Assembly (NCBI GenBank): GCA_030649165.1
Contig: JAUSGG010000011.1
Coordinates: 1 to 41,059, forward strand
Direction of reading: 5' to 3'
Origin: Armatimonadota bacterium
GTDB taxonomy: Bacteria > Armatimonadota > UBA5829 > JAUSEB01
Length of the DNA: 41,059 bases
The notes beneath the pieces were generated by a model that was not told the origin of the DNA, did no database searches, and was given only the letters and a program-made list of their open reading frames with translations. Positions 22,042 through 29,577 of the stretch are shown in pieces (positions within the stretch are counted from its first letter, which is position 1; the number at the start of each line of letters is the position of its first letter). The position numbers were made by a program, and so were the translations under genes.

Positions 22042-23739
22042 ATGAGTATACAAAGCAAACTAGAAGTCTATCCTCAAGACGCGCTGTCCCTTATGCACAT
22101 GTCCCGAATCCGAGGACTATGTTTCTCAGTATCTATGGTGGCCTTGCTGTCCCTCGCGTTCCTGGCCGCCCCGCTGTTCGCCGATGAAGCCGCCACCGAC
22201 CAATGCGAGAAAGCTAAAACGGAGCTTGCCGTTGCGGGCGGACACCGCTCGAACGGCGAGCTTGATAAGGCCGTGGAAGCCTACCGCGCCATCGTTAAGG
22301 AACGCTCATCCTGCCGCGTCCAGGCGGCCGAAGCGCAGATGCATATCGGCGAGATATACCAGAACGAGAAGAAATGCGCCGAGGCGGTGGAGGCGTTTGA
22401 GGCCGTGGTTCGCAGCTTCAAGGACCAGCCGGATTTGTGTGTTGCGGCCTTTGGCAAAATGGCCCGGACTTACAAGGCTTCCGGTAAGCTGGAGCAGGCA
22501 TTGCAATCGTACAAGCGGATAATCCAGGGCTATCCATCCCGTCCCGCGGACTGCGCCGACGCGATGCTTGCGCGCGCGTCCATATACGAAGAAAAACAAG
22601 ACTACGGCAAAGCGGAGATCGAATGCCGCAAGCTGATGAGGGCGTACGGCTCGAATCCCGCTCTCAGGCCGCACTGCCGTTTTGCTCATTTCCAGATATG
22701 TTGCGAGATGAAGGCGGCCGGACGGCTTGACGAGGCTCGGAAGGCTTTCGAAGGGATCAAGGACGATGCAGGCGACTCCTACGCGGCCCAGGCTTTGCTA
22801 AAGCGGGCTGAGATATTCGTCACGCAGGGCAAGAATGACGAAGCGATCCAGGAATTTCAGTCCCTGATAGATCGTTACCCTCAGCACAAGAATACCTGGC
22901 TGCAGGCCAAGTTCCTGCTGGCGGATGTCTATCTTGACAAAGGCGACATGGAAAGCGCCCGCGCTATCGTGAAAGAGATCTCGGAGGGCGAGGCCATCAA
23001 GGGTTTTGGTTATCTGTACTACGACCTTATGTCCCTCCAGCATCGCTGCGGCGACGCCGCCTGGCGAGATTCAGCTAAGAAATACATCAAGTACAAATCA
23101 ACATCGAGTGATCGAGGACAGGCGGACTTTCCACCGGTCGAGATAGCTTTTAACTTTGAGAATGACCTGCCGAAGGCTCAGAAACTCGCCGTGGAGTTCG
23201 TTGAAAAGCATCCGAATCACCCACTGGCGGCGACAGCAGCGTTTATGCGAGGGAGTTGTCTGCTTGCCACAGGCGACAAGGAAGGCGCGCTGGCGGTTTT
23301 TGACACGCTGATAGCAACCTACAGCAAGCTGCCAGACGCCAGAAGCTACACGAATGCCGCACTGGAGGCGTCGGCCGACATTGTGCTGGAGTCAGGACGT
23401 CCGGACGAAGCAATTCGGAGAATCGAAAGGATGGATGCCAGGACGGCAACGGAAAAAGCATCGAAGCTTGATAAGATGGGCCGTGTGTACGTGCGAGTCA
23501 AGGATTGGGCGCAGGCAACCACAGCGTTTGATCGGGCGGTTCGGACGCCGGGCGCATCGGCGGACACGATTTACACAGCATTATTTGATCTTGGCAACTG
23601 CTACTATCGCACTGGCGATATTGCCGCTGCTCGCGCGTGCATGTCAAGAGTAGCGAGCAAGGAGCCGGACAGTCAACAAGCGCGCAAAGCGCAGGCAATG
23701 CTCTATCTGTGGAGTACAGCAGAAGGTGGGTCCTGGTGA
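22042..23739 (+). CDS. Secreted tetratricopeptide-repeat protein
   Basis: The 565-residue protein has a hydrophobic export signal (VSMVALLSLAFLAAPLFA, about residues 31-48, cleavage after LFA) and then tandem TPR units. Examples are LAVAGGHRSNGELDKAVEAYRAIV, AEAQMHIGEIYQNEKKCAEAVEAFEAVV, AFGKMARTYKASGKLEQALQSYKRII, and more to the end (DLGNCYYRTGDIAAARACM). TPR proteins serve as scaffolds. Cysteines are unusually frequent, suggesting disulfides outside the cytoplasm. The ATG at 22042 gives a long N-terminal region before the signal; ATGs at 22093 or 22099 would give a normal signal peptide and may be the true start. It heads the locus that continues with the Cys-rich peptide 139 bp downstream. 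Confidence 0.85.
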   Translation: MSIQSKLEVYPQDALSLMHMSRIRGLCFSVSMVALLSLAFLAAPLFADEAATDQCEKAKTELAVAGGHRSNGELDKAVEAYRAIVKERSSCRVQAAEAQMHIGEIYQNEKKCAEAVEAFEAVVRSFKDQPDLCVAAFGKMARTYKASGKLEQALQSYKRIIQGYPSRPADCADAMLARASIYEEKQDYGKAEIECRKLMRAYGSNPALRPHCRFAHFQICCEMKAAGRLDEARKAFEGIKDDAGDSYAAQALLKRAEIFVTQGKNDEAIQEFQSLIDRYPQHKNTWLQAKFLLADVYLDKGDMESARAIVKEISEGEAIKGFGYLYYDLMSLQHRCGDAAWRDSAKKYIKYKSTSSDRGQADFPPVEIAFNFENDLPKAQKLAVEFVEKHPNHPLAATAAFMRGSCLLATGDKEGALAVFDTLIATYSKLPDARSYTNAALEASADIVLESGRPDEAIRRIERMDARTATEKASKLDKMGRVYVRVKDWAQATTAFDRAVRTPGASADTIYTALFDLGNCYYRTGDIAAARACMSRVASKEPDSQQARKAQAMLYLWSTAEGGSW

Positions 23740-23878
23740 GAGTGATCGCATCGCACGAGGAACTCTATGATAACTTATAGAAGAGAGGTGTTGAGTATCT
23801 ATATGATCTTACGAGAATGGAAGAAAGTAACAGGCCTAGAGCCTGCATATCCTAGATGAGATTACGGAGGAAACGCTG

Positions 23879-24265
23879 ATGAGAGTGGGAAGTGTGTTGG
23901 TTTGTTGTGCTTTGTGCCTCGTCATGTTGGGTTGCGCTGTCATCGCAGCAAATGCGGCTCGATTACTGACTAGCGAGGACTTGGCGGCTTTACACGGAGG
24001 AACTGGAGTCTGTGGGGTTGCGAAATACTGCCCACGTGGGAGCTGTGGTATACTCCCCAGGGCATGTTCCAAGTGCGATGATTGGCAAACCGATCTTGAC
24101 TATTGCAACTGGAGCGCAACGCCTACTGACCACTGCCTGCCAAGCTCTGATCCTACGGGGTGCGGCGAGTGGTATGACGGCACGTGCTTTGTGTATAGTT
24201 GTATTGGCCTCTCCCCTAGAGGAACACCCTGCGCATCTACGAAGGCTGTGAATTGGTGCCCATAA
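23879..24265 (+). CDS. Secreted cysteine-rich protein with double-glycine-like leader
   Basis: The 128-residue protein starts at ATG 23879, 8 nt after GGAGG. A Sec signal (VLVCCALCLVMLGCAVIAANA, cleavage expected near residue 26) is followed by RLLTSEDLAALHGG (residues 28-41), which resembles GG-type leaders cut by C39 peptidases. The remaining 87 residues hold 12 cysteines in CxxxxxxC, CxxxxC and similar spacings with many Gly, Pro, Tyr and Trp, as in a disulfide-rich secreted domain. No family was recognised. A C39-like peptidase is encoded two genes downstream. The combination of a Sec signal and a GG leader on one precursor is unusual. That it is a peptide product is inference; it could instead be a structural surface protein. 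Confidence 0.8.
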   Translation: MRVGSVLVCCALCLVMLGCAVIAANAARLLTSEDLAALHGGTGVCGVAKYCPRGSCGILPRACSKCDDWQTDLDYCNWSATPTDHCLPSSDPTGCGEWYDGTCFVYSCIGLSPRGTPCASTKAVNWCP

Positions 24266-24281
24266 GCACGGAGGTATCGCT

Positions 24282-25175
24282 ATGATAAACAGGAAACGAG
24301 TAATCTTGGTGATAGGCATTGGACTGGTTCTTGGCTTGGCTATGATGGTCGCACCCAAGGTGGTCGTGCAGACGGTGAAGGCCCAGGCGGACGTTCCGAC
24401 CGCTGATTTCATTGCGGCAGCCATGAAATCTCAGATCGCAGCGCGTGGGGAATCGCTGCAGGCCGAATATACGGTGCGCGCCGCTGTTGACCGCACGGTA
24501 GGTGAACAAAAGCGGTACAAGTACACGTATGTATGGACTCCGACGACCGTGTTCGTCAAGATAGGATACGAATCGAGCGACGACGGATCCAATTGGGTGC
24601 GGTACGCTACCAAGATAACGTCGTTCGACGTGGAGAAGGTCCGTCACAGAATGCTACGGACTACAACAAGCGGGACATCTATAGGCCGCGATCATACCGA
24701 GGCGCCTGGCGATGATTGGTGCACGCTCGACAAGATGGAAACCGGCTGGCGCTACCTTGTCGATAAACCATTGTGCGAAGCGATCAAGGGCGGAACTGTC
24801 AGCGAACAGAAGGAAGCCATTGACGGACACGACTGTTGGCGGGTCGACGTTCCATTCGGACCCTCAGCGATGTGGCACGTATGGTGCGACCCAGCACTGG
24901 ACTTCTGTCCGCGCCGCATCGATGTAGGAACGGGCGAAACACATCCGTTTTCCCTTGAGATCAGCGAGTATAGCCAGACCGACGGTGTTTGGTTTCCACA
25001 CAAGCAAGTTCTTAAGACTGTGACTCCGGACAGCGCTTACCAATCCGTCAGCACACTCGATTCCATGGTCGTCAGACAGAGTGTACCGGCTAGCAAGCTG
25101 ACTGTTGAATTCCCGTCGGGCACTACCGTCATGGTGGGTGATTCGAAGCACAGCACTAGGGTGGTCACGCCCTGA
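24282..25175 (+). CDS. Exported LolA/LppX-like protein
   Basis: The 297-residue protein starts at ATG 24282 with GGAGGT upstream and lies 16 bp after the peptide gene. An N-terminal membrane or signal segment (VILVIGIGLVLGLAMMVAP) is followed by a beta-rich domain. It has repeated strand motifs (SLQAEYTVRAAVDRT, YKYTYVWTPTTVFVKIGYE), a GWRYLVDKPLCEAIKGG region, and GHDCWRVDVPFG and WHVWCDPALDFCPRRIDVGTGE. This pattern fits the outer-membrane lipoprotein-sorting (LolA/LppX) half-barrel superfamily. Four Cys residues suggest disulfides. It could bind a lipid or peptide product of the locus. Confidence 0.6.
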   Translation: MINRKRVILVIGIGLVLGLAMMVAPKVVVQTVKAQADVPTADFIAAAMKSQIAARGESLQAEYTVRAAVDRTVGEQKRYKYTYVWTPTTVFVKIGYESSDDGSNWVRYATKITSFDVEKVRHRMLRTTTSGTSIGRDHTEAPGDDWCTLDKMETGWRYLVDKPLCEAIKGGTVSEQKEAIDGHDCWRVDVPFGPSAMWHVWCDPALDFCPRRIDVGTGETHPFSLEISEYSQTDGVWFPHKQVLKTVTPDSAYQSVSTLDSMVVRQSVPASKLTVEFPSGTTVMVGDSKHSTRVVTP

Positions 25176-25200
25176 TGGAGTGATGATTATCTGGAACGCG

Positions 25201-25230
25201 CGCTCGCCCCTGATATCGGAGGGGCGAGCG
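25201..25230 (+). promoter_or_regulatory. Perfect 11-bp intercistronic hairpin
   Basis: CGCTCGCCCCT (25201-25211) pairs exactly with AGGGGCGAGCG (25220-25230) around an 8-nt loop. It lies between the LolA-like and C39-like genes. No U-run follows, so it may stabilise RNA, attenuate expression, or partly terminate. Confidence 0.75.
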
Positions 25231-25267
25231 TGTCGTTCTAGGATTAGAGGGCGGGTGTCGTGTAAAG

Positions 25268-26671
25268 ATGTCTTGGCGAGCGAAGCCTCAAATACTCTTG
25301 ATTGGCCTGTTAGCGCTCTGCTGTGTAGTGGTCTCCGGAAGCAGAGCTGACGAGAGAGAGCGCCTCTGCGGCCCGGAGAGCCTTCTGATTGTCTGCGAGC
25401 AGCTTGGTGTGAGGACGACGTTAGATGAACTCCTAACTGCTACAGCGACTGACCCACAGAAGGGTACAACTCTGCTCAGTTTGCAGGCCGGCGCCAGGTC
25501 ACTGGGCCTGGAGGCAGTCGGTGTCAAGCTCAGTGCCGCCGAACTATGCGCAATGAAGACCACCGCCATAGCCCATCTGTGGGGCGATCACTTTGTTGCC
25601 GTTGTTGCTGACGGTACGGATAGTCTTACGGTCACGGACTTTCCAAAGAAGGCCACTCGAATGACCGCCGACATGTTCAACATTCGGTACTCTGGTTTTG
25701 CCCTGCTGGTGAGCAAAGCGAAATTCAAGCTTCCGGAGTCGGTGGCAAGCGGCTCCGACATGAGGGTAGATCACTACGTGTGGAATTTTGGCTTTGCGAA
25801 AGAGGGAGAAGACCAACAACACGCATTCGTCTGTCGAAATGTTGGGACAGATCCTCTTGTTATCACGGGTGTGGAGACTACCTCCAGCGATCTGGTGGCG
25901 GCCGCGGAGGAGAAGGTTGTCCCGCCTGGCGGCTCAACCGAGATCCTGGTTGTTGTCACTCCCAGCAGGCAGCTTGCCTCGAAAAACCAATACGCAATAG
26001 TGAGGTGCAATGATCCCGTCACCCCGATAGTTAGACTGGGTGTGGAAGGAACAACAACGCCGGCCCACGTGATCTTGCATCCCAACAGTCTGAACTTCGG
26101 CCAGGTCAGGCGTGGGGAGAGTGCTAGTCTGGAAATTTTCCTGCCTTACTCCGGCAGCCACCGTCTTCGGATCACCGGAGTGACAACCGACTCGAAGCGA
26201 CTCAACGCGACAGTTGCCGAGCGCCGACACAAGGACGGCCTCTCCGTACAAGTGAAGCTAGCGGCGCGCCTCCCTTTGGGGGAATTCAGAGGAAGACTGC
26301 GCATCCACACGAACCATCCGCTTGACCCTACCGTCGAGGTTCCGGTTGTGGCGAGGATAACTGGCCCAGTCAACGTAACGCCGGATGTGCTTTTCATGGG
26401 AACGCTCAGATCAAGAGATGTCAGGTCAAAGCCGACGGCGGTCATTTCGTATCAAGGTCGCAAGCCTTTCCAGATAAGTAAGATCGTAAGCCCATTGGAT
26501 TTTGTGGACCTGAGCGTCAGACCCGGACCCAAAGAAGGGAGCTTCCTTCTTTCCGCGGCAGTGAGGCCCGGCGGCCCCCCGCGGACGGTGAAATCCGAAG
26601 TAGTGATCCGGACCAACATCCGGGAGCAACCGGAGATAAGATTGCCTCTGTACGTGTTGGTTGAGGACTGA
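25268..26671 (+). CDS. Exported C39-like peptidase fused to DUF1573/ASH-type domains
   Basis: The 467-residue protein has a signal peptide (ILLIGLLALCCVVVSGSRA). Just after it is a C39-like papain-fold domain (about residues 29-155). Candidate catalytic residues are Cys34 in LCGPESL, His108 in GDHFVAVV and Asp124 in LTVTDFP. The usual Gln six residues before the Cys is Asp28 here, so activity is not assured. About residues 170-467 form three Ig-like segments of the DUF1573/ASH (HYDIN-like) type, e.g. HYVWNFGFAKEGEDQQHAFVCRNVGTDPLVITGV, LNFGQVRRGESASLEIFLPYSG and FMGTLRSRDVRSKPTAVISYQ. The start is ATG 25268 with only a weak ribosome site. C39 domains normally sit on the cytoplasmic side of ABC exporters, so an extracytoplasmic one fused to ASH domains is unusual. 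Downstream is another DUF1573 protein. Confidence 0.75.
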   Translation: MSWRAKPQILLIGLLALCCVVVSGSRADERERLCGPESLLIVCEQLGVRTTLDELLTATATDPQKGTTLLSLQAGARSLGLEAVGVKLSAAELCAMKTTAIAHLWGDHFVAVVADGTDSLTVTDFPKKATRMTADMFNIRYSGFALLVSKAKFKLPESVASGSDMRVDHYVWNFGFAKEGEDQQHAFVCRNVGTDPLVITGVETTSSDLVAAAEEKVVPPGGSTEILVVVTPSRQLASKNQYAIVRCNDPVTPIVRLGVEGTTTPAHVILHPNSLNFGQVRRGESASLEIFLPYSGSHRLRITGVTTDSKRLNATVAERRHKDGLSVQVKLAARLPLGEFRGRLRIHTNHPLDPTVEVPVVARITGPVNVTPDVLFMGTLRSRDVRSKPTAVISYQGRKPFQISKIVSPLDFVDLSVRPGPKEGSFLLSAAVRPGGPPRTVKSEVVIRTNIREQPEIRLPLYVLVED

Positions 26672-26796
26672 GGCGCAACGATGAGGCAGTCTGGCTATGC
26701 CGCACCAGTGGGTACTAGACGAGATGATAAATGCTAGGCCACATGTCGTAGACAATGGCGCAGAGGTCCACGACAAGTGTCGGACGGAGGTCAGAA

Positions 26797-27498
26797 ATGA
26801 TGGCAGGATTCTCTCTTCGTAAGCTGTGCATTGCTGTTTTCGTGACCTATCTCGCCGTGTCCAGCATAGCGCATGGCGCGCCATGTGTGAGCGTCGAGAA
26901 GACCACGCTTGATGCGGGCGATCTTCCGTTTGCATCCGCGATCACCGCCGCATTCAAATTCAGCAATACTGGCGATCAGGAGCTTGTCGTCCAGGGGGTA
27001 GACGCGACCTGCGACTGCACAAAGGCGACGGTAGGTAAGTCGCGATTGCAGCCTGGGGAGTCCTCGACCGTTGAGGTGAAGTTTCAGTCGGCTGGCGTCA
27101 CCGGAGCTTTCCAGAAATCCGTCCTATTGCGAACCAACGATCAGCGCAATCCCTCCATAACTCTCCAGCTTGTGGGGCAGGTTCTTCCAGTAGCCGCGCT
27201 GTCACCCGAAGAGGTCGATATCGGTTCAGTTTCGCGGGGCACCGTCTTAGATAAGACGGTAACCGTAACTCCTGCAAACTCTTCCGCATTCAAGGTGGTG
27301 AGTGTCGAGAGTCACGGAAAGCATGTGAGGATTCAAGAATGCGAGAGGATTGACGATCAAAAGGCTATCTATGTGATCCGCATGAAAATTGGTGTCGGCG
27401 ATCGCCCTGGGAGACTTATGGAGGCAGTCCAGATTAACACTTCCGTTGATGGAGCCAAACTGGGTTTTCTAGTGTTTGGAAAGATCCTCAATAGATAA
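26797..27498 (+). CDS. Exported DUF1573-domain protein
   Basis: From ATG 26797 (6 nt after GGAGG, 26786-26790) the protein has 233 residues; the longer frame from 26755 has no ribosome site. A signal peptide (LCIAVFVTYLAVSSIAHG) is followed by a DUF1573 domain. The core is FASAITAAFKFSNTGDQELVVQGVDATCDCTKATVGKSRLQPGESSTVEVKFQSAGVTGAFQKSVLLRTNDQRNPSITLQLVGQV, with the characteristic CDC pair after ...GVDAT. Further ASH-like strands follow. The product is periplasmic or surface-exposed and of unknown function. It ends the TPR/peptide/LolA/C39 group, probably the same operon. DUF1573 proteins are also recurrent neighbours of secreted peptide systems in Bacteroidota. Confidence 0.85.
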   Translation: MMAGFSLRKLCIAVFVTYLAVSSIAHGAPCVSVEKTTLDAGDLPFASAITAAFKFSNTGDQELVVQGVDATCDCTKATVGKSRLQPGESSTVEVKFQSAGVTGAFQKSVLLRTNDQRNPSITLQLVGQVLPVAALSPEEVDIGSVSRGTVLDKTVTVTPANSSAFKVVSVESHGKHVRIQECERIDDQKAIYVIRMKIGVGDRPGRLMEAVQINTSVDGAKLGFLVFGKILNR

Positions 27499-27652: not shown

Positions 27653-28889
27653 TTACTCCCACCTCAACGCATCAATCGGATGCAGCTTGGCTGCCTTTCG
27701 CGCCGGATAGATGCCGAAGAATATTCCTATGGCGGCGGAGACCACAAATGAAAGCAGCACCGCGCGGGGCTGCACGAGCGCCGGCCAGCCGAGCACGCTG
27801 CTGATCACCTTTGACCCCAGATAGCCCATCGCTATTCCGATCACGCCGCCGAGGATGGAAACGACCAGCGACTCGGTCAGGAACTGCGCCAGGATTATCG
27901 TTTTCCGTCGCGCCGACTGCCTTGCGGATGCCGATTTCCCTCGTGCGCTCGGTGACGGAGACGATCATTATGTTCATTATGCCTATGCCGCCGACTATCA
28001 GCGAAACGACGGCGACGCCTCCGAGCAGGGCGGTCATCGTCCCGCTCACGCTCTGAAAGGTCTCCTGAAGGGCCGATTGGCTTCTGACAGTGAAATCGTC
28101 GTTATCGGGGAACGGAGGCTGCAGATGATGGCGGCGGCGGAGCAAAGCCGTTATCTGCTCGCTCGCCAGTTCCATCTTCGACGGCGACGACGATTCCACA
28201 AAGATGTTGCTCAGATGGGTCCTGCTGAACACCCGGCGCAGAGCCGTGGACACCGGAACGACAATCACGTCGTCCTGGTCTTGCCCAAACGCGCCGCTGC
28301 CCTTGGACCGCAGGACGCCGACTATTTTGAACTCAACGCGGTTGATGCCTACCGTTCTGCCGACCGGATTCTCTCTCGCGCTGCCCAGCAGGTTCTCCAC
28401 CACGGTCGGACCTACCACGGCGACTTTGAGCCGGCCTCGAACGTCGCTGTCCCTGATGAACCGCCCGGCCCTGACGCCGGCGTTATTCACCCTCTGATAC
28501 TCCGGGACCGTGCCGATGAGGCTCGTCTGAGTGTTCTTGCCTCCCATTTTGAGCGTCACCGCCCCGCGGGCGGCAGGCGCGACGTTGCCGACGGTAGTCC
28601 TCAGGTTGCGCTTTATCGCGTCGGAGTCTTCTATCACCAGCGTGGTGATTGGCTGGCCGCCTCCCCCGAACCCTCCACGAATCCTGGGATTGCCGGGCAA
28701 GACCGTTAACAAGTTCGTGCCCATCGCGGAAATGGAGGCTGAAATGCGACTCGAAGCCCCCTGGCCGATGGCGAGCATCGCTATGACGGCCCCTACCCCG
28801 ATAATCACACCCAGCATAGTCAACGCCGTGCGCAGCTTATTGCCGGCAAGACTCCTCAACGCAACCTTGATACTCTCTATGCCTATCAT
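27653..28889 (-). pseudogene. MacB/FtsX-type ABC permease with a frameshift
   Basis: The first 325 or so codons read as a MacB-type permease: N-terminal membrane helix region with ALRSLAGNKLRTALTMLGVIIGVGAVIAMLAIGQGA, a periplasmic domain, then SVSGTMTALLGGVAVVSLIVGGIGIMNIMIVSVTERTREIGIRKAVGAT. At about 27900-27908 the frame shifts. The true end (LAQFLTESLVVSILGG..IGIFFGIYPARKAAKLHPIDALRWE) continues in another frame and stops at 27653. A one-base gain or two-base loss near GATEN explains it. The reported open frame to 27672 ends in nonsense. It may be a pseudogene or a sequencing error. The start is ATG 28889, directly abutting the ATPase stop. Confidence 0.85.
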
Positions 28890-29132
28890 CTAAGAACCCT
28901 CTGATGCGCCGCGCAGGATGTCGGCGGCGCGCGTAGGATTGGCGACTCGCTCGTCGTCCACAACAATGCCGTCTCGCACGCGGACAATCCGCTTTGCGTG
29001 CCTCGCCACGTCCGGCTCGTGAGTGACCATGATTACGGTGATCCCGTCATCGTTCAACTCCTGCAGGATTCCGAGGATCTCCTCGCCCTGCTGGGACGCC
29101 AGGTTACCCGTCGGCTCGTCCGCCAGGATCAG
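28890..29132 (-). pseudogene. C-terminal fragment of a MacB-type ABC ATPase
   Basis: About 80 codons encode LILADEPTGNLASQQGEEILGILQELNDDGITVIMVTHEPDVARHAKRIVRVRDGIVVDD and a short tail. This is the Walker B, D-loop and H-loop end of a MacB/LolD-type ATPase. Walker A, the Q-loop and the LSGGQ signature, some 150 residues, are missing. At about 29132 the frame runs into the serpin fragment on the opposite strand. The usual ATPase-permease operon is therefore broken here. Confidence 0.85.
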
Positions 29133-29133
29133 C

Positions 29134-29577
29134 ATGTATATCTTCTTGCCTGACCGCGACTCCAACCTTGAAGCGTTCTACAGGAATCTGAGCCCTGGCA
29201 AGTGGAAATCGTGGATGGCCGGCTTCAATGGCTCGGGTAAGGTCATCAAATTGCCCCGGTTCGAATTGGACTGCAGAGCCGATATGAAGCGAACACTTAC
29301 GTCATTGGGAATGGGCATCGCGTTCGACAAGGAGAAAGCGGACTTCCGGGAGATGTGCTCGGCCCACGTGTGGATAGAAAAGGCGCTGCAGAAGACATTT
29401 GTCAAGGTCGATGAGGACGGCACAGAAGCCTCGGCGGCGACAAGTGTCAAGTTTAGAGCGTCAGCCGTTGATCTGTATGATGGCACGGTGGTCATTGATC
29501 GCCCGTTCTTCTTTGCGATACGGGACGACAAGACGGGGGAAATCCTGTTCCTGGGCTCGGTCGTGGATCCGAGGTAG
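29134..29577 (+). pseudogene. C-terminal half of a serpin (serine protease inhibitor)
   Basis: From about 29134 the plus strand reads MYIFLPD, then VIKLPRFELDCRADMKRTLTSLGMGIAFDKEKADF, KALQKTFVKVDEDGTEASAATSVKF and VIDRPFFFAIRDDKTGEILFLGSVVDPR. These are the C-terminal serpin signatures, including hinge VDEDGTEASAAT and the closing DRPFFFAI. The N-terminal two-thirds of the approx. 400-residue fold is absent. Reading upstream gives antisense ABC sequence, so the serpin is truncated exactly where the ATPase is. A truncated serpin cannot fold as an inhibitor. Confidence 0.88.

Follow-up and report, generated by a model that had tools for sequence, protein, structure and literature searches.

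Double-glycine leaders and the C39 peptidases that cleave them are usually viewed as one unit with an ATP-binding cassette (ABC) exporter. The leaders handled by peptidase-containing ABC transporters (PCATs) follow the consensus L-12xxxE-8L-7xxxxG-2G-1 (PMC6959990). The one experimentally studied exported C39 peptidase that we found in the open-licence literature is FapD, encoded in the fap functional-amyloid operon of Pseudomonas, and its active-site cysteine is needed for the secretion of FapC, from which it is evident that a C39 enzyme can work after export (PMC5557850). In this work, we analyzed a stretch of 41,059 nucleotides of an Armatimonadota bacterium (contig JAUSGG010000011.1, hereafter called the window), which is contig 143 in a draft genome that totals 5.48 Mb at a completeness of 99%. 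It contains a gene cassette encoding a cysteine-rich protein with both a Sec signal peptide and a double-glycine leader and, two genes further on, an apparently exported fusion of a C39 domain with DUF1573. For such a combination of a Sec signal and a canonical double-glycine leader with a dedicated exported C39 protein, no earlier description was found in the open-licence literature. Judging from the sequences, this is probably a system of Sec-dependent double-glycine leader processing, in which Sec export, signal peptidase I and LolA-like chaperoning would precede an extracytoplasmic C39 cut after the GG pair.

The 128-aa product of the open reading frame (ORF) 23879-24265 starts with a hydrophobic signal sequence closed by an AxA motif (residues 24-26), continues with LLTSEDLAALHGG, which ends at residue 41, and finishes with an 87-aa tail. 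Across its two junctions the protein reads ...AVIAANA / ARLLTSEDLAALHGG / TGVCG..., and 12 cysteines lie C-terminal to the double glycine. The signal peptide, the stretch following it and the 12-cysteine tail had been pointed out in an earlier interpretation made from the letters of the window (the sequence-only reading) and were found where it had placed them. The Pfam scan gave no match for the mature region, and the idea that the peptide is a lipoprotein was dropped, as no consistent lipobox was visible by eye.

Altogether, 32 such cysteine-rich proteins were compiled, the first 18 of which form an earlier subset. The peptides show the double-glycine leader pattern (L-12, hydrophobic residues at -7 and -4, G-2, and G/A/S-1): within the subset, L-12 was present in 17/18, M/L-7 in 14/18, V/I/L-4 in 18/18, G-2 in 18/18 and G/A/S-1 in 16/18. 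In the full set, position -2 is G in 30 peptides and A in two, and position -1 is occupied by G (18), A (6), S (3), T (3), R (1) or L (1), i.e., by G/A/S in 27/32; the glycine pair, whose conservation the sequence-only reading had treated as decisive, is thus largely kept, with A, S or T replacing the second glycine in 12/32. What differs is the placement of the leader: a classical one forms the very N-terminus of its protein and is cytoplasmic, and here a signal peptide precedes it. In 30 of the 32 peptides, residues of the kind preferred by signal peptidases are found at positions -18 (A/G/S/T/V) and -16 (A/G/S/C) from the GG cut, which suggests that a 15-residue leader would remain after the action of signal peptidase I. 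LahT150 still cleaves when no more than the last 13-14 residues of a leader are left, and it tolerates GA and GS (PMC6363468), which fits both such a shortened leader and the GA/GS variants observed in the relatives.

The possibility that the leader is a chance motif was also considered. Leave-one-out profiles of the signal-leader region were scored against a set of 2365 ORFs, and nearly all left-out peptides were recovered above every unrelated ORF, with very few competitors; the weakest were G022a, which was missed, and the peptide of contig 125. L093:3393-3857 and L100:1982-2620, which at first looked like false positives, proved to be further members located inside cassettes. Distribution was surveyed within Armatimonadota (291 genomes). 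In the genome of the window, a 36-residue leader profile gave exactly five matches at E 0.1, all of them in cassettes, and in the phylum 14 genomes were leader-positive, among them 10 of the 12 that encode C39-DUF1573 (hypergeometric P 6e-14 for the co-occurrence, a value that is partly circular, as the profile was trained on those very loci). The leader profile search proposed in the sequence-only reading was also run with a profile built from other genomes only, and it ranked the window peptide first in its own genome, followed within the top three by those of contigs 238 and 78, with that of contig 13 fifth; four of the five cassette peptides are therefore in the top five, and the match at rank four spans the signal part only. 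Furthermore, in loci recognized by the leader only (three at L131, and L133-L137), a LolA-like gene lies directly downstream in 8/8 assessable cases, and C39 or DUF1573 is present in several of them. On the leave-one-out, phylum-wide and leave-genome-out results, chance was dropped as an explanation.

The arrangement is repeated in the same genome. Four C39-DUF1573 paralogues were identified, on contigs 13, 125, 238 and 78 (the three full-length ones at 27-39% identity), which brings the number of cassettes, together with that of the window, to five. In each paralogous cassette the order is the same, with the C39-DUF1573 gene behind a LolA-like gene and a gene for a small exported GG protein, the leaders being LLSTHNANAVMGG, LGAAEMGMLQGG, LSLQEMASVHGG and LSSGEQAAVMGG. 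A gene for a TPR protein upstream of the peptide gene is found in these other cassettes as well, and also in L056/L057/L061, and the stand-alone DUF1573 gene following the fusion gene recurs in the cassette of contig 78 (L017). The C39-DUF1573 copy of contig 125 (L015 2530-3944) is broken by a stop codon or frameshift, while the reading frames of the peptide and the LolA-like protein in that cassette are intact. When the window peptide was used as a query against the genome, none of the other four cassette peptides was found, indicating that the peptides share little beyond signal and leader.

Within the phylum, fusions including the C39 part at E 1e-30 were found in 12/291 genomes, and nearly all of their loci uncut by a contig end encode an exported cysteine-rich leader protein; there, too, the neighboring peptides have little in common except the leader and signal region. 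The named-genome scan revealed two loci in Armatimonadetes and a third with DUF1573 only, all named relatives being Armatimonadetes metagenome-assembled genomes, and there were no relatives in the plasmid collection or among the viral contigs. The survey of gene neighborhoods thus confirmed that the linkage is conserved in related genomes, and the pairing of peptide and C39 domain outside the cytoplasm, proposed from a single locus, gained support from the five occurrences of the cassette in one genome and its recurrence in about a dozen further genomes of Armatimonadota.

The sequence-only reading needs to be amended in two respects. First, it is the LolA-like protein, and not the C39 gene, that accompanies the peptide most constantly. 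A LolA-like gene follows directly after 26 of the 31 peptide genes assessable with the profile. The product of 24282-25175 has no Pfam match (the LolA cut-off is not reached), and its relatives likewise score below the PF17131 cut-off; its predicted structure (mean pLDDT 61) is a LolA-type half-barrel, for which the top Foldseek matches were LolA3 of P. gingivalis, DUF1329, NE2245 and LprG. The earlier naming of LolA-like, DUF1573 and TPR neighbors is consequently upheld by Pfam for the latter two and, with modest confidence, by the predicted fold for the first. Second, the fusion partner of C39 is not DUF1573 but a LolA-like protein in two distant lineages (L148 2890-4407 and 4861-6357; L068 4960-6441; L147 1998-3542). 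These fusions contain a Pfam-level C39 domain with Cys and His kept, and those in L148 and L147 adjoin exported cysteine-rich proteins carrying the leader or a near variant of it, LSEVQMENAKAG. Such alternative fusions link C39, LolA-like protein and DUF1573 in one process.

The C39-DUF1573 fusion of the window passes the Pfam Peptidase_C39 cut-off (E 8.8e-17; 61.6 bits vs 22; aa 29-151), as do all five paralogous proteins, and the Pfam DUF1573 cut-off (E 1.7e-15). In its AlphaFold2 model the C39 part (pLDDT about 72-90) is predicted to be papain-like, and Foldseek matched it with PCAT1 (8vpb_A, prob 1.00, rmsd 3.4 A, 129 columns), as the structural check suggested by the sequence-only reading would demand; the rest of the model matched ASH/HYDIN Ig-like chains and ciliary ASH proteins. 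A profile of nine C39 domains found PCAT1, ComA and LahT in PDB at E 5e-16 to 5e-11. Given the Pfam, Foldseek and PDB profile matches, the idea that the C39 assignment is an artefact was dropped. Neither the catalytic Cys nor the catalytic His varies among the full-length C39-DUF1573 proteins (12/12 for both), so that a C39 fold with a conserved Cys/His pair is what the models and the alignment together support. The position equivalent to PCAT1 A55, involved in L-7/L-12 binding, is constantly hydrophobic (L/M in 9/9).

The genome seems to lack a C39-ABC exporter that could cut such leaders on the cytoplasmic side. It encodes eight C39 domains, five in the C39-DUF1573 proteins and three in long proteins of ~1530-1570 aa (L020 3592-8301, minus strand; L021 5393-9994, minus strand; and L022, on contig 212), and the two long proteins that were scanned have a TPR-C39-DUF6531-RHS repeat architecture. 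None of these C39 domains is joined to the ABC membrane and ATPase domains that define a PCAT, which argues that there is no C39-ABC exporter to process the leaders in the cytoplasm. A separate locus, L019 1206-8437 (minus strand), encodes a radical SAM protein together with three WD40-type proteins, each of which starts with a twin-arginine-like segment and ends in a cysteine-rich CNC...YWxPN tail, and a C39-like protein devoid of the Cys and fused to DUF1573; it is possibly a second exported peptide-modification system.

The features supporting the proposed processing at the level of sequence are the signal-like N-termini, the leader motif and its spacing, the gene linkage, the paralogous cassettes, the C39 fold with its conserved Cys/His pair, the alternative fusions and the lack of a C39-ABC exporter in this genome. 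From these we infer the cut by signal peptidase I, the cleavage after GG, the chaperoning by the LolA-like protein, the disulfides and a role for the product. The cysteine-rich protein would leave the cytoplasm through Sec, and signal peptidase I would remove its signal peptide, exposing a 15-residue leader with C39-type positions. The LolA-fold protein may then hold or carry the unfolded proprotein until the exported C39 domain, tethered either to the DUF1573 Ig-like chain or to a LolA-like protein, captures the leader and, on the extracytoplasmic side, cleaves it off behind GG; the cysteine-rich protein thus freed would be able to form disulfides there, with the TPR and DUF1573 proteins presumably serving as a scaffold.

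Several observations weigh against this mechanism. The models were built at low alignment depth, with only three aligned sequences, and their mean pLDDT is 67 (fusion) and 61 (LolA-like protein). The third residue of the triad is Asp in only 8/12 proteins (including Asp124 of the window) and otherwise N, S or G, and the Gln at -6 from the Cys, which is typical of C39 peptidases and a proposed oxyanion residue, is missing in 11/12, being present only in the contig 78 paralogue. The PCAT1 I59 equivalent, also involved in L-7/L-12 binding, varies, so that conservation of the whole leader-binding groove had to be rejected, one of the two PCAT1 positions holding. Among the peptides, R or L at -1 (one peptide each) and T (three peptides) are residues that a classical C39 enzyme would hardly favor. 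The number of cysteines is odd in 18/32 peptides and even in 14/32, so that full pairing into disulfides is unsupported and even cysteine numbers were rejected as a sign of it. Finally, in L133 and L135, both on short contigs, there is a LolA-like gene near the peptide and no C39 nearby. As regards the Gln, the caution expressed in the sequence-only reading was factually right, as the residue at -6 from C34 is Asp28, but it is weakened by the LahT150 co-crystal, in which the distance between the Gln and the oxyanion is 4.3 A and the role was assigned tentatively to the catalytic His instead (PMC6363468).

The missing Gln and the variable third triad residue, together with the Cys-less protein of L019 and the fact that HlyB domains also match the C39 profile, could be read differently, i.e., that the exported domain is a receptor or chaperone which binds the leader and leaves it uncut, like the C39-like domain of HlyB with its substrate. 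We consider this rather unlikely, because binding-only domains have lost the Cys, whereas Cys and His are invariant in the C39-DUF1573 proteins and retained in the LolA-C39 fusions, and because the conserved small residues at -2/-1 suit a cut site better than a binding site. Still less probable is that the C39-DUF1573 protein acts on another exported substrate (e.g., a surface or amyloid-like protein) and that the cysteine-rich protein is its co-regulated neighbor or a leader-binding inhibitor. The target of FapD is indeed unsettled, FapD partners have no canonical leaders, and TPR and DUF1573 proteins are encoded nearby; however, the pattern of the leader is specifically that recognized by C39, its complete matches in the genome of the window are confined to cassettes, and the linkage persists through paralogue families and alternative fusions. 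That leader and C39 are left over from a cytoplasmic C39-exporter system of an ancestor, the signal peptide having been added later and the motif no longer having a role, is very improbable: no PCAT is left in the genome and the C39 sequence resembles those of NHLM/PCAT exporters, but the motif and its 15-residue spacing are kept across many families of the phylum (sequences otherwise <=36% identical to that of the window), and the region after GG is highly variable while the leader is kept.

A conserved leader combined with a variable core is a pattern known from toxins and bacteriocins. Five peptides of genome G282 (L131, L093) are identical to each other at 30-36 of 44 positions of the signal-leader region, and their mature parts agree in ~22-41% of aligned residues, which resembles that pattern and is suggestive only. 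Tentatively, one may imagine a general Sec-plus-C39 pathway of Armatimonadota for hypervariable cysteine-rich effectors (bacteriocin-like or signalling), each with its own cassette and exported in the unfolded state with a 15-residue GG leader, a LolA-like chaperone as carrier and a C39-DUF1573 or LolA-C39 protease for release outside the cytoplasm; if it exists, double-glycine processing would there do without a transporter.

The cassette of the window (22042-27498) comprises five genes on the same strand, separated by 139, 16, 92 and 83 nt, and all five products have a hydrophobic signal-like segment at or near the start, i.e., they are apparently exported (Table 1).

Table 1. Features of the C39-DUF1573 cassette in the window
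Feature	Position	Strand	Basis
TPR protein, first gene of the cassette, apparently exported	22042..23739	+	Pfam TPR; hydrophobic segment near N-terminus
Predicted Sec signal peptide of cysteine-rich protein, aa 1-26, AxA at 24-26	23879..23956	+	Sequence
Putative 15-residue double-glycine leader ARLLTSEDLAALHGG, aa 27-41	23957..24001	+	Leader profile with leave-one-out and leave-genome-out tests; match to PCAT leader consensus
Predicted mature cysteine-rich region, 87 aa, 12 Cys	24002..24262	+	Sequence; Pfam match absent
Exported protein of predicted LolA fold, 297 aa, 16 nt past peptide gene	24282..25175	+	AlphaFold2 model and Foldseek
Exported C39-DUF1573 fusion, 467 aa	25268..26671	+	Pfam; paralogues and close relatives
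C39 domain, aa 29-151	25352..25720	+	Pfam PF03412; Foldseek to PCAT1
C39 catalytic residues Cys34, His108, Asp124	25367-25369, 25589-25591, 25637-25639	+	Alignment of 12 proteins
DUF1573/ASH Ig-like chain, aa 167-467	25766..26668	+	Pfam (DUF1573, HYDIN-like Ig) and Foldseek (ciliary ASH proteins)
Exported stand-alone DUF1573 protein, 83 nt past fusion gene	26755..27498	+	Pfam

In a related locus (L058 2153-4493), the cassette is immediately preceded by genes for an extracytoplasmic function (ECF) sigma factor and for a TPR protein that is hydrophobic over a segment close to the N-terminus, which suggests envelope-linked regulation. Downstream of the cassette of the window, the region 27672-29577 has the look of a junction created by rearrangement or misassembly: a MacB-type permease apparently loses its frame near the C-terminus, and its ATPase partner is represented only by the last ~90 aa (28890-29165, minus strand), overlapping head-to-head with the C-terminal half of a serpin (29023-29574, plus strand; profile positions 213-370 of 370).

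Among the known systems, the closest precedent is FapD, a periplasmic C39 peptidase of unsettled substrate (NCBIfam NF058616). FapD and the fusion protein of the window are both C39 proteins with their own Sec signal, and the latter, like FapD, would act outside the cytoplasm; on the other hand, Fap proteins have no canonical leader, and no DUF1573, LolA-like or cysteine-rich partner has been described for FapD. Only one of nine C39 domains analyzed here matched the NCBIfam FapD model, and weakly (E 9e-5), the domain of the window giving no match at E 1e-3, and no FapC or FapF genes were seen in the cassettes by ORF inspection, with no profile search made for them. The question of what exported C39 peptidases cleave has been open since FapD, and the cysteine-rich peptide is a concrete candidate substrate. 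With the PA2778-family C39 proteins (NCBIfam NF033920), the window protein shares the C39 domain and a weak profile similarity, far below the cut-off (14.6 against 150 bits), and we know of no GG-leader partner in that family. With the LolA/RseB/LprG superfamily, the protein encoded directly downstream of the peptide shares the predicted fold, but by sequence it is not a housekeeping LolA, and it is paired with a cysteine-rich protein and sometimes fused to C39. PCAT1, ComA and LahT, in turn, have in common with the cassette the C39 fold, the Cys-His pair and leaders with L-12, L/M-7, V/I/L-4, G-2 and G/A/S-1, and this leader may serve as a search handle for secreted cysteine-rich families, being conserved while the mature part is free to vary. 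The C39 domains of those proteins are cytoplasmic and fused to the ABC exporter that moves the cargo, whereas here C39 is part of apparently exported proteins, joined to DUF1573 or LolA, the cargo would travel via Sec, and the leader stands behind a signal peptide. The pair of leader and C39 peptidase has apparently been moved out of the exporter and rebuilt extracytoplasmically behind Sec, with a LolA-like carrier replacing the transporter.

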